A stretch of DNA of 64,000 nt. Origin: Tachypleus tridentatus. Its lineage: Eukaryota > Arthropoda > Merostomata > Xiphosura > Limulidae. Where the stretch lies: positions 4,402,001 to 4,466,000 of the forward strand of contig NC_134825.1 of the NCBI RefSeq assembly GCF_004210375.1, given 5' to 3'. Positions 13,493-47,041 of the stretch are shown here, one piece after another. Each line of letters begins with the position of its first letter. Position 1 is the first letter of the stretch. Made by a program: the position numbers and the translations under genes. The notes below the pieces were generated by a model. The model did not search any database and had not been told where the DNA came from. It worked only from the letters and a program-made list of their open reading frames with translations.

Positions 13493-14110
13493 CAGCCGAA
13501 AATAACAAGGACGCAAGAAAATTGGAGGAAGGTGTTATTCAGTGACGAGACTCATTTGTTCGTACAGGGTCAAAGAAGTCTGCATGTTCGCAGATCTCCA
13601 GGTGAGAAACTTCGAGAATCTCACATCAATCAGTTCGTTAAACATCCCTTGAAGAAGATGTTTTGGGGCTTTTTCAGCTACTGTGGCGTCGGAGGCTTAC
13701 ATATCGAAGAAGGTATGATGCGAGGACCACAGTACATCGAAGTTTTGCAGAAAAGAGTCGTTCTAGAAGTGAAAAAGAGATTTCCAGATGGATCTGGCAT
13801 TTTTCAGCAAGATCTGACTCCGTGCCACACATCGAAACTTGTGAAGAATGTTTTTACTACAACACGAATAAAGGTTCTGGACTGGCCTGGAAACTCTCCG
13901 GACTTAAATTTTATTGAAAATCTTTGGGCGATTTGTACAGAAAGACGTCAGGGAAAAGACTGTACTCCGTAAGATAAGCTAATTGAGGCCATAATTGAGG
14001 GGTGGTACCGCGATCCAAAAATTAGTAAAGATTGCAATCAACTCGTGGACTCGATGCCAAAGCGGATTAATGATCTTCTGAAAAATAAAGGCGGTAATAT
14101 CATGTATTAA
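13493..14110 (+). pseudogene. Tc1/mariner-type DD34E transposase, C-terminal part
   Basis: Tc1-type transposases cut and paste DNA through a DDE catalytic triad. The frame reads W-R-K-V-L-F-S-D-E-T (first Asp), G-I-F-Q-Q-D (second Asp), then W-P-G-N-S-P-D-L-N-F-I-E-N-L-W (Glu). There are 34 residues between the second Asp and the Glu, the Tc1 spacing. After a single in-frame TAA at 13970 the same frame continues for about 45 codons to TAA at 14108, in a typical family C-terminus (residues LVDSMPKRINDLL). The N-terminal helix-turn-helix half is missing: the frame is closed upstream at 13490, and a SINE lies 180 bp before it. I could not identify terminal inverted repeats. It is a 5'-truncated, inactive relic. 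Confidence 0.85.
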
Positions 14111-28500: not shown

Positions 28501-31500
28501 ATCTCCTTCTGATCCTGCTTACAACAATATATTGTGCCTGCATCTCCTTCACGACTCCTTGCTTACGTGACAATATATTGTACCTGCATCTCCTTCTGAC
28601 TCCTGCTTACAACAATATATTGTACCTGCATCTATTTCTGACTCTGCTTACAACAATATATTGTACCTGCATTTCCTGACTCCTGCTTTACAACAATATA
28701 TTGTACCTCCATCTCTTTCTGACTCCTGCTTACAACAATATATTGTACCTGCATCTCCTTCTGACTCCTGCTTACAACAATATATTGTGCCTGCATCGCA
28801 CCTTCTGACTCCTGCTTACAACAATATATTGTACCTGCATCTTCTTCTGACTCCTGCTTACAACAATATATTGTACCTGCATCTTCTTCTGACTCCTGCT
28901 TACAACAATATATTGTACCTGCATCTTCTTCTGACTCCTGCTTACAACAATATATTGTACCTGCATCTCCTTCTGACTCCTGCTTACAACAATATATTGT
29001 ACCTGCATCTCCTTCTGACTCTGCTTACAACAATATATTGTGCTGCATCTCCTTCTGACTCCTGCTTACAACAATATATTGTACCTGCATCTCCTTCTGA
29101 CTTCTGCTTACAACACTATATTATACCTGCATCTCCTTCTGACTCCTGCTTACAACACTTTTATTGTACCTGCGTCTCTCTTTATCTTCTATCAGATTTT
29201 TTCCTTATCCTGGGTTACCATTCCATTGTTCCTAATGTCCCACATATCTTTTCTCTCTGGGTTACCATTCCATTGTTCCTAATGTCCCACATATCTTTCC
29301 TCTCAGGTTACCATTCCATTGTTCCTAATGTCCCACATATCTTTTCCTCCTAGGTTACCATTCCATTGTTCCTAATGTCCCACATATCTTTCCTCCCAGG
29401 TTACCATTCCATTGTTCCTAATGTCCCACATATCTTTCCTCCTAGGTTACCATTCCATTGTTCCTAATGTCCCACATATCTTTCCTCCCAGGTTACCATT
29501 CCATTGTTCCTAATGTCCCACATATCTTTCCTCCTAGGTTACCATTTCATTGTTCCTAATGTCCCACATATCTTTCCTACATGTCGTGCCCATTTCCATT
29601 CAGTTCTTGGAATGTTATTTGCTACATCTATTTTATTTGTCCGTTTTTCTTATTCTGTCATTTCTTCATCCGTCTTGTAGTATTATAATAAGTATATTTC
29701 TTTGAGTAGGTCTTTTTGTTAGTACCAATCTTATGGTACACAATGATACATTATCTTTTTGTGGTTTATCTCATTTTGTTAGTACCAATCTTATGGTACA
29801 CAATGATACATTATCTTTTTGTGGTTTATCTCATTTTGTTAGTACCAATCTTATGGTACACAATGATACATTATCTTTTTGTGGCTTATCTCATTTTGTT
29901 AGTACCAATCTTATGGTACACAATGATACATTATCTTTTTGTGGTTTATCTCATTTTGTTAGTACCAATCTTATGGTACACAATGATACATTATCTTTTT
30001 CTTCAAAGTAATATCTTGATTCTCTAGAATTTCTTTATACTGGTCGTTATTACACGACAAAACAAATTATATAAAGAACTGATTTAGGTTTGGAAGTTTT
30101 TCACACGTTTACTTATATTAGGTGTCTTTGTCCGTCAGTATTATGTTTTACAGTAAAAACTTAGTTTATGCACAGTTTTCTTCATTCCATAGATGACCAG
30201 CTCAGAAAGAAAGCTTCCCATCCTTAAAACGGACTCCCACATCATCGACCAGGAATTTAGCTCCGTCCGAGAACGTTTCGATGCCGAGATGAAACGGATG
30301 GAAGAAGAGATGAACAAGTTCCGGTCACAGCTACTGGACCGTGAACGTGATTCTTTTACCAGCACCAGCCAAACTCAACGCACTAGCACCACGCATACAT
30401 CAACGTCATCTAACGAGGGCACCACGCATAAGTCTGAACTGCGAACCTGGTTGGACGGGCTCAAGTCTCCTCTTATTCAAGAAGGCGAAGCTGGAAAGGA
30501 ATTAAAGTTACGGTTTGACGTATCTGAGTACAACCCTGAAGAAATCGTGGTGAAAACTGTGGACAACCGTCTTCAGGTAAGCTGCTAAAGGTTTGACGTA
30601 TCTGAGTACAGCCCTGAGGAAATCGTGGTGAAGACTGTGGACAACCGCCTTCAGGTAAGCTGCTAAAGGTTTGACGTATCTGAGTACAGCCCTAAGGAAA
30701 TCGTGGTGAAGACTGTGGACAACCGCCTTCAGGTAAGCTGCTAAAGGTTTGACGTATCTGAGTACAGCCCTGAGGAAATCGTGGTGAAGTGGTGAAGACT
30801 GTGGAAAACCGCCTTCAGGTAAGCTGCTAAAGGTTTGACGTATCTGAGTACAGCCCTAAGGAAATCGTGGTGAAGACTGTGGACAACCGCCTTCAGGTAA
30901 GCTGCTAAAGGTTTGACGTATCTGAGTACAGCCCTGAGGAAATCGTGGTGAAGACTGTGGACAACCGTCTTCAGGTAAGCTGCTAGAATAGCACCAGCAG
31001 GTTGTGAAAAACAGCCAAACATCACTTAATTATATTAGTTTCCGATTAGAGAACCCTTCTTACTTAGACCAGAACCAAAAATAACCTAGGTCATAAGTAT
31101 AGCTAATGAAATATACTTTTCATGTATTTTTGTTTATGTATAAGGTTAGAATGCATTGTTATCGATCTTTTCGGCCGTAAATACAATAATAACTGGTGAG
31201 TTTCGGCTAGCTTATGAGCTTTATGTTAACCCGAAATCCATATGTCGATCCATAAATATAACCATCGAAAATGTATTAAAATGGAGAATAATAAAAGTAC
31301 ATATACTAATCATTGTAACCACTACTTCGAATGAAAGTAACATTGAAGAAGTAATAAAGTATACCTTACTTATGAAACATGTGATCACATATCGATAAGG
31401 ACATCACCCATCTTCATATTTCGCTTATAATTTTCAGATAAATTATGGATTACAATTCTGTTAAATTATCTTTAGTTTGTGTTTATATTTCTTGTTAAGC

Positions 31501-34500
31501 TACACAATAGGTTATCTGTCTTTGCTCACTAAGAATATATAAACCAAGTTTTTAGTGTTATGAACCTCCAAACTAACTGCTGAGCTAATGCAAAACATTG
31601 TTTTGTGATGTCATTCATATAGATGTGTAAAAAGGACATGAGTTACTGACAAATTAACACGTTGAAGGACAAAAGAGATTTTAATTTTCTTTAAAATATT
31701 CTAAGTTGACACAAAATAGTTGAATATAATTGTTTTCAGTATTCGTCATTACATTGTATTTTTGTTAAGACGTGTACTACTTTAAATACAGTGTAAAAAA
31801 ACGTATTAGTTGGAAAATGTGTTTATTGTAACGAGAGTTTGTTCATCGTTGCTATGCTTGGGTTCCCTCGAAGTCCTGAAAGTAAAAACAAAGCAACAAC
31901 AAACAATGGATACAGTAGTGACGTCAGTTGTAGTTGTCCTATAAGGTACGACCGGTCAGCATTAGTCTAAAAAGCTGAAACATATTTACTAGTTTTTACA
32001 TGAAACTTAACACTGTTTTAATGCGAAATAGAGTTTGAAACTGCCAAGGTAGTTACAGTATAACTAGATGATCTTTCGAATGTTGTCATAGAAACCAATA
32101 CACGTTATGAACGTTGTCACGAAAACGGATAATCGTTGGTAAAACCTATCAACGAGCCACACGCAGCTCTGTCTGAAAGCAATATACTCCAGCTAGTTGG
32201 CGTGTTTAGCAGTAGAAACGGAATAATAATAATAGATTAAGTTTGGTTTAAATAAAGCTTGCATGACTTTTTCAAGAAGGGGAGATCTTAACTAATGAAT
32301 GATGAAGTCACCTTAGATAAAAGTTACTGAAATAATTCTTACTCCACTTATCATATTTTACATTTAAAATCAAATTAGACACTATTTTTATCTCCTAATG
32401 TTCAGTACACTGACCTTAAAGTAAATATCGTATCTTAAGACATATATATTTTTTGATATTAGTTTTGAGAACGACAGAGCCATCCACTTTCTCATAAACT
32501 GAGTATAATGAGATATACACCAGCGCCATCTGCTAGAGCTTTATGAAAATGGCATTTCCAACTAGAAATGAATTAATATTTCCTTCTAATAACTATTATG
32601 CGTGAAAAAGTCTCGGTATGGGTAGAAGAAGTGAGGACCAACTTCGGCACTATACATGTGAAAATATTATGTATTAACATTTATTTTAAGAGATGTATTC
32701 TTTATTTCTGTGAATTTTTTAAAACTTTAAATAACATTGTAATATATTGGCTTCTTTAAGTTGAAATCAAATTGAAAACTTGAAAATTACTTTTCCATCT
32801 AGTGGTCAGCTAATTGGCTTCCCGTATACAATTCAGTGCATTAATTTATTCTTTAGTTTTCAGTTCCCCCTGTAGTGCTATCTTTAGTTTTCAGTTCCCC
32901 CTGTAGTGCTAGATGATTCTCCGTGTAATACACGACAAGTTGACTGTTAAATTCAGTGATATTTTGAATAAAAGTTTGTTTTTTTTGGAATTTCGCGCAA
33001 AGCTACACGAGGGTTATCTGCGCTAGCCGTCCCTAATTTAGCTGTATAAGACTAGAGGAAAGGTAGCTAGTCATCATCACCCACCGCTAACTCTTGGGCT
33101 ACCCTTTTATCAACGAATAGTGGGATTGACCGTCATAATATAACGCCCCCATGGCTAAGGGCGAGCATGTTTGGTGTAACGGGGATTCGAGTCTGCGACC
33201 CTCAAAAGCGAAGTAAAAGGTGTGTGGTTATATTCGTAAGCAGAATTTAACACTGTGAAGACAATTTAGTAATTTTAACCTTCAAGTTACAAAATGGTCT
33301 ATTCTGTTTATTATCAACGAGTCTACATTTGGCAACAAGCCAATAAACTTTGCGTTCTTTTTTCTGTTACAACACCTAGTGGTAAGAACAAAGAACAATG
33401 ACTAAAATATATCCTTTTATCCTTTTCATATAAGATATATAGGAGACCCAAGGAGCAAACATTAGAATTAATTACAATATTAAGGTTCTAGGTTCTACAT
33501 TCAAAATGTAATAGGCCCACAAGTAACTTGGTGATGCATAGTTAAGATAATTCTAAGATTCTGTACATCTGTTTATCTTGCAAACACAGGTTCATCTAAT
33601 AAATCATTTGCGTTGTAGCCCCCTGGCGGCCCAACGAATCTTGAAAAATTATGAGGCTAAAAATAAGGGCTCGATACCAACTGTGCGAAGAATACACTTT
33701 TCGTACTGTGTAGCTTTACGCTCAAAAGAAAGACAATTTCTCTTTTCGGTTTAGTGGATATAGTTTTAACAAGTTAGTTTTCAGAACTTTCAAGGTACAA
33801 AAGATAAACAGATATTTATAAAAAGTAATCTTACACTTTATATCGTTATTGCAATTGCACGTAAGGTCGTAAGAAGATGGATTAGAACATTATTCTTTAC
33901 TCATTTATTTTACCTATTGTAAGCCGTGCTAAAATTGTTTATGAGATATAACGATTATATAGTAACGATGTTAAATATTGCAAACGTTGGGAAGAAGTTC
34001 ATGTAGCTTCGCCATTTAAATGTGGAACTATTAATACAACCAGCACCCAATCTGGTTAGTCACACATATCTTCGTCTTTCAACAAAGACAGTAAAGGAAT
34101 AGTGTGCACAGCCCACATTATCAACAGTTCCACTAAGAAGGTTACTGAGTTGTTCTCTGAACCGGGTTTAATCCAAGGATCAGTAAGTAACTGTCCAGAT
34201 GCATAACTACCCTCTATTTCTAAGTATTATAATAAAAGTCGTCGCATTGAGTGACTCAAGGACAGTGACTCACAAATCCTCGTCGTTCTGTGTCATCTTG
34301 GTACGCTTCTGTTTGATCTCTCATTGGTCGTATATAGCTCTAAGTAAAAGTTCACCACAGAAAAACAGAAGAAGATACACATGTTTCTGTGAAAGTTTAG
34401 ATGGGAATTGAAATCTCTTTGTGTCTTTCTTTCTCTATTACTAAGCACAAATCTGTATAATTGGCTATCTGTGCTCTGCTCACTTGCGGGTATCAAGAGC

Positions 34501-37500
34501 CGAATTTTAGCGCTTTAAAATGTGAAACCTACCACTGTGCCACCAGGAGGCTAAACCTATAACAACTGAGAAAAATATAAAAAAGTAAGATTTTAAAATT
34601 TTAAAGCTGTCACACGAACACCAGTGTTCCGACAACATACAAACAAAGCAATATAGAACATAGTTTTCCATGTTAAATAACAGTTTTCATGGCTTGTAAA
34701 ACTTTTACTTAAGAAATTCCTTTGCTTGTGAAATCAGAGTTGAATAACTAATTTTCTTTGAATGAGTGTGATTGGTAGTTTCATTCAAAAAGGTACATTC
34801 TGGGATTGACAGTCCAGGTTTCCTTTATTGGATGGTGGAATGATAACATGTTGGAACCAAATCTAAAATAAGATTAATGAACAGCATTAACGTATGGAGT
34901 CCAACGACATTCAGGGGGCCAGACCCCCAGATTTATTAAAGCGTTTCCAGACTCTTTGTTAATTATCATTTAATTAAGCTTCTATAAATTAATAAATTCA
35001 AGTTCATTACACCAAGAAGTAGTAATGCTGAATCCATTAGTTCGAAGATCGAATATTTATACATCAAAAGCCCTAATGTTATAAGAAATACGCGTCAAAA
35101 TTGCTTTGGCAGACTTAAGTTATTTTTAGCAAAGACGAGTGTATTCAGTCCAGGGTGAGCTTTGAGTTATACATGTGTTTAACTATGTGAGAGAAATAGA
35201 ACTACCGGTTTGGAAAGTTTCCAAGATTTCATGACGAAGATGCAAGAAGATGTTCGTGGTTCTACAACTTACCCATGATTCCTTGCTATACTTAATAGTT
35301 TTGTTTTGCTGTGTGATATTACCAAATACAGATCTTACAAAAGATACCCAAATAACATTTCAGGATAGAGTAGTAATTTATAAATCACAACAACAAATGA
35401 CTGTTACACTCGGTCAGATGTAAACCTTCCTAACTGCTTAAAAAAGCTCGGGGGAAAGAAAACGAGATGGAAGCATATATAAAAAACTGAATAACATGTC
35501 TTAAGGAAGCATATTGAAAACTGAATAACATATCTTAAGGAAGCATATTGAAAACTGAATAACATGTCTTAAGGAAGCATATATAAAAAAACTGAATAAC
35601 ATGTCTTAAGGAAGCATATTTAAAAAACTGAATAACATGTCTCAAGGAAGCATATTGAAAACTGAATAGCATGTCTTAAGGAAGCATATTTAAAAAACTG
35701 AATAACATATCTTAAGAAAACATTGGGCTGAAGACACTTCCTAGCATTAAATATGTTAACAGTAAGCTGAAGCCCCTTCCTAGCATCAGATATGTTAACA
35801 GTGGGCTGAAGACCTTTCCTTGTATCAGATATGTTAACAGTGGGCTGACGACTCTCCCTGGTATCAGGTATGTTAACAGTGGGCTGACGACTCTCTCTGG
35901 TGTCAGGTATGTTAACAATGATTACAAATGTCTTTCTAATCAGTGATGACGAGAAACCCACTTGTTGAGAAATTTATATGCAAAAACGGCTCGTTTGGGC
36001 TGAGAAAAAGTGTTTTCTCAGCCCAAACGAGCCGTTTTTGCATATAAATGTCTTTCTACTCCCATCTTCTCTCAGTAAGCTCATTACCTGTCACGATAGT
36101 ATAACAATGTGTTTATGCTATGTGTGTAGCATTATTCGTTACCTTCCCGTTTGTTTACTGATTTGTTGTTATCCACGTATTCTTTTACCAAGTTTCCTTA
36201 TATAGTCTAATCCAACTACAAGAAAATTCTAATCTGAGAAACAACTACCAGGAGTGTTAGGCTGAAAAAGTGTTTACGTCATCCAAACGGTGATGCCTAT
36301 CGCTCTTGCGCAAAGCATAGTTACTAAAGAAAATTTTTTTTTTCTTCAGTCACTTCTTTGTGATCGATCAGCACCCGATGTGTTAATCATTAGATCACGT
36401 GAAGTAAATCGAACATCCTGCACTTCCTATACTGTAATAACATGCAGAAACAGACATCGAACATCCTGCACTTCTTATACTGTAATAACATGTAGAAACA
36501 GACATCGAACATCCTGCACTTCCTGTACTGTAATAACATGCAGAAACAGACATCGAACTTCCTGTACTGTAATAACATGCAGAAACAGACATCGAACATC
36601 CTGCACTTCCTATACTATAATAACATGCAGAAACAGACATCGAACATCCTGCACTTCCTATACTGTAATAACATGCAGAAACAGACATCGAACATCCTGC
36701 ACTTCTTATACTGTAATAACATGCAGAAACATACATCGAACATCCTGCACTTCCTATACTATAATAACATGCAGAAACAGACATCGAACATCCTGCACTT
36801 CCTATACTGTAATAACATGCAGAAACAGACATCGAACATCCTGCACTTCCTATACTGTAACAACATGCAGAAACAGACATCGAACATCCTGCACTTCTTA
36901 TACTGTAATAACATGCAGAAACAGGCATCGAACATCCTGCACTTCCTATACTGTAATAACATGCAGAAACAGACATCGAACATCCTGCACTTCCTATACT
37001 GTAATAACATGCAGAAACAGACATCGAACATCCTGCACTTCTTATACTGTAATAACATGCAGAAACAGACATCGAACATCCTGCACTTCCTGTACTGTAA
37101 TAACATGCAGAAACAGACATCGAACATCCTGTACTGTAATAACATGCAGAAACAGACATCGAACATCCTGCACTTCCTATACTATAATAACATGCAGAAA
37201 CAGACATCGAACATCCTGCACTTCCTATACTGTAATAACATGCAGAAACAGACATCGAACATCCTGCACTTCCTATACTGTAATAACATGCAGAAACAGA
37301 CATCGAACATCCTGCACTTCCTATACTGTAATAACATGCAGTAACAGACATTGTTCTCGGGCAATGATCCTTCCTATTTTGTTTTTTTAAAAAAATTATA
37401 CTGTTTACAAAACAGCTTCAAAAAACGAATAGTGAGCGTGAAACTTTCTGATCGACGTTTTTGCAACAACAGTATTTTTGTTACTCTAAAAATTACTATT

Positions 37501-39701
37501 GTTAACTCAGGTTAGTTTTACTTCACGTGAAAATAAGTATGATGTTTATTGCTTGAAGTTAAAGACAAAACTACATAATGCCGACATTATGATGTTTATT
37601 GTTTGAAGTTAAAGACAAAGCTACATAATGCCGACATTATGATGTTTATTGTTTGAAGTTAAAGACAAAGCTACATAATGTCGACATTATGATGTTTATT
37701 GTTTGAAGTTAAAGACAAAGCTGCATAATGTCTACATTATGATGTTTATTGTTTGTAGTTAAAGACAAAGCTACATAATGTCGACATTATGATGTTTATT
37801 GTTTGAAGTTAAAGACAAAGCTACATAATGTCCACATTATGATGTCTATTGTTTGAAGTTAAAGACAAAGCTACATAATGTCGACATTATGATGTTTATT
37901 GTTTGAAGTTAAAGACAAAGCTACATAATGTCCACATTATGATGTTTATTGTTTGAAGTTAAAGACAAAGCTACATCATGTCGACATTATGATGTTTATT
38001 GTTTTAAGTTAAAGACAAAGCTACATAATGTCGACATTATGATGTTTATTTGATATCTTTATTAGTAACAGGAGGTTAAATATTCACATCAGCTAGAAAC
38101 AATGCTTATTTTTATACTTGGCAGGGAGTGTTATACAAGGTGATGGGTTAAGGCTGCCCTATGTACAACTAGTTGGCAAGTTTCTGGATGTTACTCTCAT
38201 ACCTTTTATTGTTTTATTCACTGCCTGTAAAAAGAGATGTTTTAAAACGTTTAGAGTTTCTAAAGACCCTGAACATGTCTTAAGATAGTTCTTGGTCTTC
38301 TTCTGTTCAGTTCAGCTGTTCCAAGGTTGAGTCATAACCTACACCAGAAATATCGTCTTCAATACTAAAGGAAGCTGCTACTGCATGTGTTTCTTTGTTT
38401 AACAAATGTCTCTGTGCCACAAAATATAGTAAAATGTTGCCATTAAAGATGTCACGACCAACCAATAGATTTCACACATTTTCAACTTTTCAACAGGGTC
38501 ACAGTATCCGACTTTCTTTGTTTTTCTTGGTTATTTAGGACTTTATGTGTAAAATTGCACTAACATAACAAGACCGGTTGCTACCTGTTTGTTTGTAGTT
38601 AAGCACAAAGCTAAACAAACTGCTAACTGTTCTCTGTTCAACACGCATATGGAAACCACGTTTACAGTGTTGTACTTCCGCAGATATATCGTTGTGGCCA
38701 CTGGGGACCAGTTGTTACAACGGTTTGAAATAAGAACGTTATTTTTGTAACGTTTTAGTCATCTGTACGACCACAATTTTTAAACTGTTATATAAATTAG
38801 TAACACTAACATATATATAAGTCCTCTCAATAACATTTATCAAATGGATATTTTGTGTATAGCACTTTTCATGCAGCGAAATCAATATTTATAGTTATTT
38901 TTCTATTTTAAAAAGAGGAAATCCTCAATAGCCGCGGAAGTAATTAGATCTGAAATGAATGAAGAAGTGAAGCCTCGAACTAAAAGTTTGTACGTGACAA
39001 AAATAAAACTTACAACCATTCTATACGCCGCTATGCTGAAGCTAAAAACGAAGGATTTGGAAAATGCAAAACATTAGCATTTCTTAATAAAAGATTAGTT
39101 GTGTTTCAATAATTAATAATAATATCAATTGTTAATTGCATAGGTTAATATTTTTTAACAATTCAGGACTGCAAGTTTTATATACATTTTCAACTTTTAG
39201 GATATTTGTTTGTTGTTACAAGTTCAGTTAAAATTCTTCTTGTCAAGTAATCAGTAAGTATGATCATTATTTCTGATAAACTTATGTATGCAATCATGTA
39301 CTGAAAAAATATTTTAATGTTTATATACAGTTTTTCTGTACTTACAAAATAAAACATCTTATTTGTAGTTATTTTTTTAAATTAGATATAAATTACATAT
39401 ATTTTGTACTTTTCATGTATATATGTATGTGTCTTTTTATTAGCTCCGTATTATTTTCCTGGTTTAATTAACTTCTTTTTGTTATTTATTTATATTTTTA
39501 TAGGTGCATGCTAAGCACGAAGAGAAATCTGAGTGCCGACAAGTTTATCGAGAGTACAACAGAGAGTTTCTGTTGCCAAATGGAACCAACCCAGAAATGA
39601 TTAAATCATCTTTATCAAAAGATGGCGTTCTAACAGTTGAAGCGCCTCTACCGGCCTTAGAAGGATCACAAGAACGAATGATTCCTATTCACTCAGCTTA
39701 A
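25585..39701 (+). CDS. Small heat-shock protein (HSP20/alpha-crystallin family), three exons
   Basis: Small heat-shock proteins are ATP-independent chaperones that form oligomers and hold unfolding proteins. Joining 25585-25587, 30193-30576 and 39504-39701 gives about 194 residues, usual for arthropod 'lethal(2) essential for life'-type members. In order: a short N-terminus; a charged, probably coiled-coil helix (about residues 21-50, R-E-R-F-D-A-E-M-K-R-M-E-E-E-M); a Ser/Thr-rich linker; the alpha-crystallin domain from about residue 103 (LKLRFDVSEYNPEEIVVK); its continuation in exon 3 (HAKHEEK, YREYNREFLLP, SSLSKDGVLTVEAPLP); and a C-terminal I-P-I motif that normally docks on a neighbouring subunit. 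The exon 2/3 junction is phase 0 inside the domain (NRLQ|VHAK). A TATA box and a CRE lie upstream. I saw no clear heat-shock element, so stress induction is not shown. The introns total 13.5 kb and carry about nine tandem arrays. Confidence 0.85.
25702..25790 (+). repeat. SINE family 2 head
   Basis: CCAGTGGCACAGTGGTATGT, CGGACTGAAAACCG, TTTCGAAACC and GAGCAGAGCA give the family-2 tRNA-like head inside HSP20 intron 1. Confidence 0.6.
25968..26260 (-). repeat. SINE family 1, split by a nested SINE
   Basis: The 3' end (minus strand) lies at 25968-26011 and the central domain resumes at 26159-26255 (CTAGAGGGAAAGCAGCTAG, ACTCTTGGGCTACTC). The two halves join in register when the insert is removed. 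Confidence 0.85.
26012..26158 (-). mobile_element. SINE family 2 inserted into SINE family 1
   Basis: This complete minus-strand copy has a tRNA-like head (CACTACGGG run on the + strand, GGTTTGATACCCGTGG on the minus strand) and a tail (GCACAAAGCTACACAATGGG, then a T-rich run on the + strand). It is flanked by ATTAGAGG (26004-26011) and ACTAGAGG (26159-26166), a 7/8 match to the expected target-site duplication. Confidence 0.8.
26336..27030. repeat. Minisatellite, 73 bp unit, ~9 copies
   Basis: The unit contains GCCTGTTCATTATTGGACTG, CCGAGATAACTTAC and AATTATTGGAAAACTTAC. The period is 73 bp (26405 to 26478 and on). Outer copies are diverged, as expected of an ageing array edge. It lies in HSP20 intron 1. 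Confidence 0.92.
27244..29175. repeat. Minisatellite, 42 bp unit, ~46 copies, palindrome in each unit
   Basis: The unit contains CTTACAACAATATATTGTAC and TGCATCTCCTTCTGACTCC. Each unit carries the 12 bp perfect palindrome ACAATATATTGT. Copies at 27244-27600 and 28800-29000 are clean. Many copies between 27600 and 28800 carry 1-4 base insertions or deletions. Frames on both strands are open in places because 42 is a multiple of 3; these are not genes. It lies in HSP20 intron 1. Confidence 0.96.
29213..29580. repeat. Minisatellite, 46-47 bp unit, 8 copies
   Basis: GGTTACCATTCCATTGTTCC and TAATGTCCCACATATCTTTC repeat at 29213, 29260, 29306, 29353, 29399 and on. The array lies in HSP20 intron 1. 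Confidence 0.94.
29718..30003. repeat. Minisatellite, 60 bp unit, ~5 near-identical copies
   Basis: GTTAGTACCAATCTTATGGT, ACACAATGATACATTATC and TTTTTGTGGTTTATCTC repeat with a 60 bp period and essentially one base difference. It lies in HSP20 intron 1, about 190 bp before exon 2. Confidence 0.96.
30193..30576 (+). CDS. HSP20 gene exon 2
   Basis: The exon holds 128 codons in phase 0 between acceptor TTCTTCATTCCATAG (ends 30192) and donor CTTCAG|GTAAGC (30577). It encodes the N-terminal region, the coiled-coil-like segment, the Ser/Thr-rich linker and the first strands of the alpha-crystallin domain. Base composition is clearly more GC-rich than the flanking introns. If unspliced, the frame meets TAA four codons later. 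Confidence 0.9.
30591..30985 (+). repeat. Five extra tandem copies of the exon 2 3' end with splice donor
   Basis: The last ~64 coding bases of exon 2 plus the donor and 14 intron bases form a 78 bp unit. It starts at 30513 (the real exon end), 30591, 30669, 30747, 30833 (86 bp spacing because of an 8 bp insertion) and 30911. Every copy keeps CAG|GTAAGC, and every copy is followed in frame by TAA or TAG. The copies differ from the exon mainly by codon AAC to AGC and by silent changes. They alternate CCTGAGG and CCTAAGG, which suggests growth by doubling of a two-unit block. None has a convincing acceptor. Confidence 0.95.
30986..32849. other. HSP20 intron 2, mostly unrecognised; one SINE fragment
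   Basis: This is AT-rich intronic sequence. The only recognised element is a decayed family-2 SINE on the minus strand at about 31490-31590 (GTTAAGCTACACAATAGG, AGTTTTTAGTGTTATG). Confidence 0.5.
32850..32911. repeat. Two-copy direct repeat, 31 bp
   Basis: TCTTTAGTTTTCAGTTCCCC starts at 32850 and 32881, each copy ending CTGTAGTGCTA. It is a simple tandem duplication in HSP20 intron 2. Confidence 0.85.
32985..33208 (-). repeat. SINE family 1, nearly full length
   Basis: On the + strand it runs GGAATTTCGCGCAAAGCTAC, CCGTCCCTAATTTAGC, CATCACCCACCGCTAACTC, GGGATTGACCGTC, GGGCGAGCATGTTTGG and ends in a B-box remnant GGGGATTCGAG. It lies in HSP20 intron 2. Confidence 0.85.
33618..33735 (+). repeat. 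SINE family 2, diverged
   Basis: CCCCCTGGCGGCCCAACG, GAGGCTAAAAATAAGGGCTC, GATACCAACTGTGCG and TGTGTAGCTTTACGCTCAA follow the family-2 order. The copy is decayed. Confidence 0.5.
33736..34439. other. HSP20 intron 2, nothing recognised
   Basis: Short open frames here (including the 34199-34411 region) have no recognisable content. Confidence 0.45.
34440..34552 (-). repeat. SINE family 2
   Basis: The + strand shows ACTAAGCACAAATCTG, GGCTATCTGTGCTCTGC, GCGGGTATCAAGAGCC, TTTTAGCGCTT and CCACTGTGCCACCAGG. This is a whole minus-strand copy in HSP20 intron 2. Confidence 0.7.
34553..35464. other. HSP20 intron 2, nothing recognised
   Basis: This is AT-rich intronic sequence without a recognised element. 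Confidence 0.45.
35465..35715. repeat. Minisatellite, ~35-40 bp unit, ~7 copies
   Basis: GGAAGCATAT followed by a variable A-run and ACTGAATAACATGTCTTAA repeats. The length varies with the A-run (ttgaaaactg, ttTaaaaaactg, atataaaaaactg). Confidence 0.9.
35722..35922. repeat. Minisatellite, ~39-42 bp unit, 5 copies
   Basis: TATGTTAACAGTGGGCTGA and ACTCTCCCTGGTATCAGG repeat with more divergence than the neighbouring array. It immediately follows the ~36 bp array, so two unrelated units sit side by side. Confidence 0.88.
35972..36049. repeat. Perfect inverted repeat: 37 bp arms, 4 bp loop
   Basis: The left arm 35972-36008 (starts ATTTATATGCAAAAACGGC) and right arm 36013-36049 (ends GTTTTTGCATATAAAT) are exact reverse complements around the loop AGTG. 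Transcribed in HSP20 intron 2, it would fold into an uninterrupted 37 bp hairpin. A related but imperfect motif (GGCTGAAAAAGTGTTTACG) lies ~200 bp downstream at 36260, so the sequence probably belongs to a repeat family. Confidence 0.95.
36050..36408. other. HSP20 intron 2, nothing recognised
   Basis: This is sequence between the hairpin and the 48 bp array. The long + frame beginning at 36290 is mostly array. Confidence 0.45.
36409..37347. repeat. Minisatellite, 48 bp unit, ~20 copies
   Basis: The unit contains CATCGAACATCCTGCACTTC and TACTGTAATAACATGCAG. Two internally shortened units occur near 36555 and 37125. Several frames on both strands are open because 48 is a multiple of 3 (for example period RTSCTSYTVITCRNRH on the + strand). 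These are artefacts. It lies in HSP20 intron 2. Confidence 0.96.
37541..38050. repeat. Minisatellite, 50 bp unit, ~10 copies, 18 bp palindrome, SINE-like
   Basis: The unit contains GATGTTTATTGTTTGAAGTT and AAAGACAAAGCTACATAATG. Several copies carry the perfect 18 bp palindrome CATAATGTCGACATTATG at the unit junction. The GTTTGAAGTTAAAGACAAAGCTACATAATG part resembles the 3' end of SINE family 2 on the minus strand (AGTTAAGCACAAAGCTACAC), so the array probably grew from a SINE tail. Confidence 0.94.
38051..38587. other. HSP20 intron 2, nothing recognised
   Basis: The composition is slightly less AT-rich than the surroundings, but I could not read a gene or element. Confidence 0.4.
38588..38706 (-). 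repeat. SINE family 2
   Basis: TTTGTAGTTAAGCACAAAGC, AACACGCATATGGAAACC, TTTACAGTGTTGTACTTCCG and GTGGCCACTGGGG give a complete but diverged minus-strand copy in HSP20 intron 2. Confidence 0.65.
38707..39503. other. 3' part of HSP20 intron 2
   Basis: This is AT-rich sequence ending in a long T-rich tract and TTTTTATAG, the acceptor of exon 3. Nothing else was recognised. Confidence 0.5.
39504..39701 (+). CDS. HSP20 gene exon 3 (terminal)
   Basis: The exon holds 65 codons plus TAA, beginning GTG-CAT-GCT (Val-His-Ala) directly after a T-rich acceptor ending TATAG. It supplies the rest of the alpha-crystallin domain (HEEK, YREYNREFLLP, LSKDGVLTVEAPLP) and the C-terminal extension with the I-P-I motif (RMIPIHSA). 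Continuity with exon 2 in phase 0 restores an uninterrupted family domain. Confidence 0.92.
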   Translation: MHAKHEEKSECRQVYREYNREFLLPNGTNPEMIKSSLSKDGVLTVEAPLPALEGSQERMIPIHSA

Positions 39702-45700: not shown

Positions 45701-47041
45701 GAATATCATCAGGTCCGACTGATGTACTGCCAGACTGATAAAGAGTGAGCTTGAGGTCCACCACTGTAAAGGGGCGATTATAATTATAGAGATTATCAGC
45801 CTGACAGAAAATAAGCGATCACTTTGCCCATGTCTTCATGTTTAAGAAGGTGGGAGGTTAAGCAGAAGTGCTTGATGCACGAGAAAAGCTTTCTCCGACA
45901 GTATCGGCGATGTTATGAGCATTAGTAACTTCCTGGCCATCAGAAAGCAAGATTGAAAGGTGGACAGAAGCATACTGTCCATTGACTTTTCGATTCTTGT
46001 CCCATATCACTTTGGAACTTGTGGTAGAAGAGATGCTAGATGTGTATTTTATCCAAAATTTCTTCTAGCTTTGACATATGACCTTCTGAGTACGTGCACG
46101 ATCCCACTAAAAAGCAGTGTGGTATCCCAGGCCCGTTTTTGAGTCTTCCGTGCCACGTGGCAGGCAAGATTTTACCACGGACAAAGATACTGTGGAAAAC
46201 TTGTCGAGGTTTAAGAAATACACTGAGGAGCTATCTGTACAATACAGTCAGTCACTGCTGCCATGCACTCGTCTATCGAAACTTACAGACGATGGTAGAA
46301 CCAAGTTCTGAGAGAGCAGTGAAAGAGGGCCAGTTGGTCTAGTCCAACTTCTATCGACGCACGCGGGTCTGGTTGCATCAACTATGGCCAGTCTCTCTCA
46401 GTATGATAGGAAAATGATCACTGCCCCATGGGTTGCTGTCAACCCTCCAAGGAAAGTAAGAGAAAAGTGAAGGGGAGCAGGCATGGAGATAAATAGCAGT
46501 AAACGACTAACTTGGTGCTTTAAAATAAGTATAAGAATCAGTATTGAAGAGAGAAAGGTTGTGATCCAAGAACATATACTCTATGGAACGACCCCTCCCA
46601 TGAATATCAGTACCACCCCAAAGGGAATTATGTCCATTAAAATCCCCCAGGATTAAAAAGGGAAATAGCAACTGTTCAATGAGGGCTTCAAGGTTTGACT
46701 GATCATAGGTCTCTTCAGGAGACAGGTAGAGAGAACGAATGGTGATGGTACAACCCAAGAAAATATGGATGACTATGGTCTCCCGATACAGGTGTATCGA
46801 GTGGCAAAGACAAAGTGGGTGCATGCTGATTGACCAGTAGTACCATCCCTTTATGCACTCTTCCATCACACTACCTGTCATTTCTATACAAAGAAAGGTA
46901 CCAAAGGATGATTGCATCAGCAGGTTTCAGAAGCATTTCCTGTAAAGAGAGACATACAGGATGATAAAAATCAATCAAAATTTTAATGTCATCTATATTT
47001 GAATGAAAACCCTGACAGTTCCACTGCATCATAGTGGTCAT
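42720..47041 (-). pseudogene. LINE ORF2: endonuclease, reverse transcriptase, RNase H
   Basis: It starts at ATG 47041 (M-T-T-M-M-Q-W-N-C-Q-G-F, the usual LINE ORF2 opening). The endonuclease spans about 47041-46507 (L-S-L-Q-E, then L-I-L-G-D-F-N-G-H-N near its centre). Reverse transcriptase motifs follow: G-P-D-D-I-H-Y-E-M-L (about 45715), D-K-A-Y-D-T-T-W (about 45350) and F-Y-V-D-D-F (catalytic, codons at 45099-45110). RNase H appears as T-A-E-L-Y-N-I-S-L-A-L (about 44120) and, beyond the minisatellite, W-I-P-G-H-V-S-I-H-G-H-E-L-A-N (about 42930). A C-terminal W-Q-S-T-W, N-K-L, K-P-Y-I-G region lies at 42730-42830. Reading needs several frame changes, so the gene is dead. Confidence 0.85.
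43033..44060. repeat. Minisatellite, 33 bp unit, ~31 copies, inside the LINE
   Basis: AACATGAAGCGATACCAGGA and CCAGTACAGAACT repeat every 33 bp with many single-base variants. LINE RNase H sequence lies on both sides (44100-44414 and 42720-42960), so the array grew within or was inserted into the element. Long frames on both strands (period VSSVLVLVSLH on the minus strand) are artefacts of the 11-codon period. Confidence 0.96.

Follow-up and report, generated by a model that had tools for sequence, protein, structure and literature searches.

A tandem array of exon ends with identical splice donors in an HSP20 gene of the horseshoe crab Tachypleus tridentatus

Results

Architecture of the HSP20 exon 2 border

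The window, by which we mean the whole 64 kb stretch of T. tridentatus DNA analyzed here (C1:4402001-4466000, from an assembly of 2.17 Gb), carries an HSP20 gene whose second exon is closed by a tandem array of six units (30512–30985; period 78, 6.0 copies, and 93% matches in Tandem Repeats Finder, TRF). All features of the gene lie on the forward strand. Exon 2 (30193–30576; 384 nt, 128 codons) was delimited by translation and by comparison with its paralogues, and its ATG directly follows the acceptor ATAG. Exon 3 (39504–39701) contains the bulk of the alpha-crystallin domain and ends with TAA. When joined, the two exons match the Pfam HSP20 family (PF00011) with 67 bits against a curated cut-off of 20.8. 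Intron 2 (30577–39503; 8927 bp) has 2377 bases in tandem arrays, namely the exon-end array and five more.

The repeat unit consists of 65 exon bases and 13 following bases, and all six copies contain CAG/GTAAGC, with donors that start at exactly 30577, 30655, 30733, 30819, 30897, and 30975. Unit 1 (30512–30589) holds the true exon end with donor 30577, and its 13 following bases include an in-frame TAA at 30586–30588. The donors of the other five units are hereafter designated as decoys. Unit 2 (30590–30667; donor 30655) is 78 bp long, as are units 3 (30668–30745; donor 30733) and 5 (30832–30909; donor 30897), which are both CCTAAGG variants. Unit 4 (30746–30831; donor 30819) is extended to 86 bp by an 8 bp insertion, and in unit 6 (30910–30985; donor 30975) the repeat identity covers 76 bp before single-copy intron begins, giving unit lengths of 78, 78, 78, 86, 78, and 76 bp from 5′ to 3′. 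Eleven of the 13 following bases (GTAAGCTGCTA) are also present in the single-copy intron after the last unit. The donor 9-mer, CAGGTAAGC, has no occurrence outside these six in the 64 kb on either strand. An array of 78 bp units falls under the usual definition of a minisatellite (head-to-tail units of about 10–100 bp).

A sequence-only reading of this DNA had described six tandem exon-end copies with intact donors. The array and the six identical donors were found as described, and the donor positions, which had been given as approximate, and the acceptor at 39504 are correct to the base. The division of the 78 bp unit into ~64 coding and 14 intron bases is replaced by 65 and 13. The assumption that every copy keeps the frame fails at the 86 bp unit 4.

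A second array on the same chromosome

An inverted, near-identical copy of the locus is located 4.2 Mb away on the same chromosome, with an array of seven units at C1:243599-244157 (78, 78, 86, 78, 86, 77, and lastly 76 bp). The copy number thus differs within one assembly, as six versus seven units at two near-identical loci (alleles or paralogues). The 17-base core across the exon end and donor, CTTCAGGTAAGCTGCTA, occurs 13 times in the 2.17 Gb assembly (6 forward, 7 reverse), always within the two arrays, and a control with the reversed pattern gave 0 matches in the assembly. Each of the 13 units of both loci comprises an exon end and a complete donor, which is the arrangement of a border variable number tandem repeat (VNTR) of the CBS type. 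Among the matches listed, the identity between the two loci is 98.5% over 3.8 kb next to the array, 95.5% over 1.0 kb deeper in the intron, and 99.3% over 3.2 kb around exon 3. Near the window ends, it is 99% on the right and 96% on the left.

A probe from the right end of the window also matches 4.80 Mb. For a probe taken at 4.500 Mb, the match is at 4.775 Mb (92% over part of the probe), with nothing near 0.2 Mb. A probe taken at 4.350 Mb finds its match at 0.38 Mb, where the orientation is unchanged and not inverted. Therefore, the chromosomal arrangement is more complex than a single simple inverted copy. Near-identical blocks (~92–99%) of mixed orientation are found on C1 near 0.2–0.4, 4.35–4.50, and 4.77–4.87 Mb; they represent segmental duplications or else alternative haplotypes that were put into a single scaffold. 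A published T. tridentatus assembly is reported as 1.72 Gb (PMC7815833), and the larger size of the present one would fit uncollapsed haplotypes. The genome also has 19 matches above the cut-off of the Pfam coagulogen family, which marks horseshoe crabs, and 14 control genomes have none; three translated exons are identical to the T. tridentatus coagulogen of PDB 1aoc outside the points where exons were joined. An assembly error at a single locus was considered as the source of the array and is made unlikely by the second locus with its seven units; the exact copy number is not guaranteed by the assembly.

Sister genes and coding constraint

There are four HSP20 sister loci, on C1, C12, C7, and C3. 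Three rounds of genome duplication have been reported in horseshoe crabs, and four sister loci would fit such a history. The sisters on C12, C7, and C3 have complete exons 2 and 3, and their exon 2 ends just once, with the donors GTAGGC, GTAGGC, and GTAGTT, respectively. In a tandem-repeat scan of 9.8–9.9 kb around exon 2 of each of these three genes, no exon-end array was detected. The C7 stretch has other arrays, including one of 22.7 copies of a 49 bp unit (L009 5828–6940), which lies ~850 bp into the HSP20 intron, away from the exon border. On C8 (69.7–70.4 Mb), more distant HSP20-like matches form a cluster, and some of them come as pairs that score equally and lie on opposite strands.

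The two C1 loci encode an identical protein of 193 residues (0 amino acid differences), with the open reading frame and splice borders intact at both and with identical exon 3 sequences. The nonsynonymous divergence (dN) of the C1 exon 3 from the sisters is 0.074–0.090, with a synonymous divergence (dS) of >1; among the sisters, the corresponding range is 0.052–0.091. Exon 2 is constrained too (dN 0.090–0.139 against the sisters). The HSP20 gene in the window is still a functional-looking coding gene.

Predicted consequences of donor choice

The TAA at 30586–30588 is the first in-frame stop past donor 1, as the sequence-only reading had supposed, and is located upstream of every decoy; the decoy junctions lie 66, 144, 230, 308, and 386 nt 3′ of it. 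The segments retained by donors 4–6 (242, 320, and 398 nt) are not divisible by three, but this frame break would have no coding effect because the TAA precedes all decoys. Donor 1 alone is predicted to give full-length HSP20 directly. The earlier statement that a working protein comes from the first donor alone holds for direct splicing; as an absolute it does not, because acceptor-like CAGs at the unit ends would in principle permit re-splicing. Without donor 1, the predicted product has 131 residues and covers positions 6–35 of the 102 in the HSP20 profile, about a third. It scores below the Pfam HSP20 cut-off (15.1 vs 20.8 bits), and the alpha-crystallin domain in which truncated proteins might end, according to the sequence-only reading, would not be intact. 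Under the 50–55 nt rule for mRNA decay, which was derived from vertebrates, all five decoy mRNAs would be subject to decay, although arthropods may differ.

The computed pairing of the donor 9-mer with the 5′ end of U1 is −11.0 kcal/mol for all six donors. The same calculation gives −10.7, −10.7, and −7.8 kcal/mol for the sister donors of C12, C7, and C3, respectively. Hiding of donors by RNA structure was uninformative, with local accessibility being low and alike in the six (mean unpaired 0.34–0.46). Competition between the donors is plausible. We also considered the units as small alternative exons entered at TAAAG/G. The AG of this site ranks only at the 63rd percentile of the 6957 AGs in the window, and the route would also leave a 14-base gap after each donor; it was rejected as a main route.

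Array growth and the surrounding minisatellites

With our own labels for the unit variants, the order is A, E, K, I, K, L in the window and A, K, I, K, I, L, L at the 0.24 Mb locus. TRF also calls a period of 164 bp (78 + 86) at both loci. Because the variants alternate and this period recurs at both loci, growth by doubling of a dimer, as proposed from the alternating variants in the sequence-only reading, is supported. The decoy units bear the 8 bp insertion and a 1 bp deletion, as expected of untranslated DNA. Nine changes were counted among the 13 units, none of them in the donor 9-mer, and the probability of such an outcome by chance is 0.31.

Tandem arrays with a period of at least 10 occupy 35.7% of the window. 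The long ones mostly have units of 29–86 bp, in up to 84 copies. Between the window and the second locus, the copy number differs in the 42 bp (46.0 vs at least 79.0), 46 bp (7.9 vs 14.0), 39 bp (5.1 vs 6.1), 48 bp (20.0 vs 13.0), and 50 bp arrays (10.3 vs at least 156.4). A 60 bp array with 4.8 copies in the window was not called by TRF at the second locus. Fragments of two Pfam domains are also present in the window: a DDE_3 transposase domain (13493–13969, forward strand; 36 bits, cut-off 28.6) and Exo_endo_phos_2 of the endonuclease-reverse transcriptase type (46510–46926, reverse strand; 43.8 bits, cut-off 27.4).

Possible exchange between the working exon and the decoys

The coding sequences of the two C1 loci differ at 2 of 579 bases, both synonymous and both in unit 1 (window positions 30555 and 30570). 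The chance of both differences landing in the 65-base repeat is 0.012, and at both sites the 0.24 Mb locus carries the state of the inner decoys. Because both differences lie in the repeat and match the inner decoys, they suggest that sequence passed between exon and decoys by gene conversion or unequal exchange, which is the natural reading, although two sites are few. The states of the 0.24 Mb locus at both sites are also found in C12 and C7, and those of the window in C3, and so retention of an older state instead of exchange is possible at these two sites. In place of the AAC...GAA of the C1 exon, the decoy units have AGC...GAG (in the K variant AAG). At these positions, C12 has AGC and GAG, and both C7 and C3 have GCC and GAG. 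Because the sisters share GAG, and C12 also AGC, with the decoys, the decoys seem to hold an older sequence than the working exon, as judged from two sites.

Discussion

A probable variable minisatellite on an exon border

The exon-end array is best interpreted as a further minisatellite that was seeded over an exon-intron border, because most of the neighbouring minisatellites also vary in copy number between the two loci. It would have originated when the final 65 bases of exon 2 and the first ~11 bases of the intron were duplicated in tandem, and would have grown, in part as a 164 bp dimer, through unequal exchange or slippage, like the minisatellites around it. The spliceosome would then face six identical donors. 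Normal mRNA would come from donor 1, whereas the use of any decoy would yield a message with its stop after 131 codons, which would probably be degraded or serve no purpose. Overall, output would most likely be modestly reduced, and the loss would be tolerated because normal splicing would continue and three sisters are without the array. We consider this whole account, a variable border minisatellite in one HSP20 sister gene with a modest and tolerated loss of output, to be probable, and the array most likely arose by accident in a repeat-prone genome.

Several points weigh against this account. The 31 bp (2.0 copies) and 34/36 bp (7.2 copies) neighbouring arrays are equal at both loci. The two loci may represent alleles that the assembler placed wrongly, and not two genes. 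The constraint on exon 3, and likewise on exon 2, mostly measures the time before the array arose. Finally, zero of nine changes in the donor 9-mer would fit either weak maintenance of the donors or none.

Alternative explanations

Every unit end has an acceptor-like site directly followed by the donor (CTTCAG/GTAAGC), and it might work as both. In such a ratchet, recursive splicing or re-splicing would remove the array, and the mRNA would always be normal: splicing from donor 1 to an internal CAG would regenerate a donor, and a second round of splicing could turn a decoy-spliced RNA into the normal mRNA. All five segments between adjacent unit ends start with GTAAGC and end with CTTCAG, a geometry that resembles Drosophila ratchet points, where a short cryptic exon and then one more donor follow. 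Acceptors were scored with a generic matrix and ranked among the 6957 AGs of the window on both strands. The unit-end AGs score −0.84 to 1.82 (88.0 to 94.9 percentile), near the 0.55 of the real exon 3 acceptor but below the exon 2 acceptor (3.48), and their pyrimidine tract is short. In addition, the sole simple branch-like motif of each unit is 16 bases from the donor, too near for one-unit introns by the usual rule, and re-splicing of mature mRNA is reportedly held back by the exon junction complex. We regard the ratchet as unlikely.

The decoys might instead divert a sizeable, copy-number-dependent share of transcripts to early-stop messages and thereby tune or stress-gate the HSP20 output. 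The six identical 9-mers are computed to pair more strongly with U1 than the sister donors do, the positions of the stop suit decay, and human CBS provides a precedent of a border VNTR. However, the copy number is unequal between the loci, as in most neighbouring arrays, the scanned stretches of the three sisters have no exon-end array, and no selection on the donors is seen beyond chance. Such regulation seems quite unlikely.

It is improbable that the array has silenced this HSP20 copy and that the gene is being lost. Three sisters with complete exons 2 and 3 and the unproductive outcome of every direct splice but one would suit such decay, but the coding frame and splice borders are intact at both loci, which show no amino acid difference and share an identical exon 3. 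More improbable still is a combined acceptor-donor ladder, in which decoys would make early-stop messages that recursive splicing between units repairs, the repeat number and stress-sensitive fidelity would set the chaperone output, and the decoys would store older exon sequence for gene conversion into the working exon. An assembly artefact that created the array or inflated its copy number is very improbable, because, despite the proneness of short tandem units to mis-assembly and the position among near-identical blocks of the same chromosome, two separately placed loci differ in unit order and flanking array lengths and unit-specific variants are present.

Significance and comparison with known systems

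The locus is a natural experiment in donor choice by position alone, with six identical donors in near-identical context spaced 78–86 bp apart. Only one of them is directly productive, two arrays of unequal length are present in one assembly, and three array-free sisters serve as built-in controls. It also presents the growth of a minisatellite across a coding border, and there are hints that untranslated repeats and a working exon have exchanged sequence. Should splicing be entirely normal, the array would measure how well exon recognition ignores perfect decoys.

In intron gain by tandem duplication, duplicate AGGT copies likewise provide a donor and an acceptor (PMC3443670), and a potato case involves duplication across an intron-exon boundary (PMC4974935). 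A new intron is formed there, whereas the HSP20 array adjoins an existing intron and lengthens its 5′ end. Drosophila ratchet points are similar in that an acceptor adjoins a donor and that a short segment and a second donor follow (PMC8605326). They are described as conserved acceptor-donor motifs inside long introns, whereas the HSP20 motif arose as a side effect when the exon end was duplicated, and any use of it is putative. The human CBS 844ins68 allele is a 68 bp duplication of an exon-intron junction; the splice site is thereby present twice at short distance, and one copy is strongly preferred (PMC2630376). The doubled sites are called donors in that source, yet a title cited there refers to 3′ splice site selection.

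As far as its sequence indicates, the anatomy of the array matches that of the human CBS 31 bp VNTR, which is the nearest precedent, and this kind of structure is already known. A 2001 study by Lievers et al. reportedly concerns the CBS 31 bp repeat and enzyme activity. The CBS repeat is given as c.1444_1467+7(16_21), with 16–21 copies (PMC2630376), and from this notation its unit can be read as the last 24 exon and the first 7 intron bases, so that the border is contained in each copy, as in HSP20. The two differ in scale, 31 bp in 16–21 copies compared with 65 exon and 11–13 intron bases in 6–7 copies, and the HSP20 array has an in-frame stop just past its first donor.
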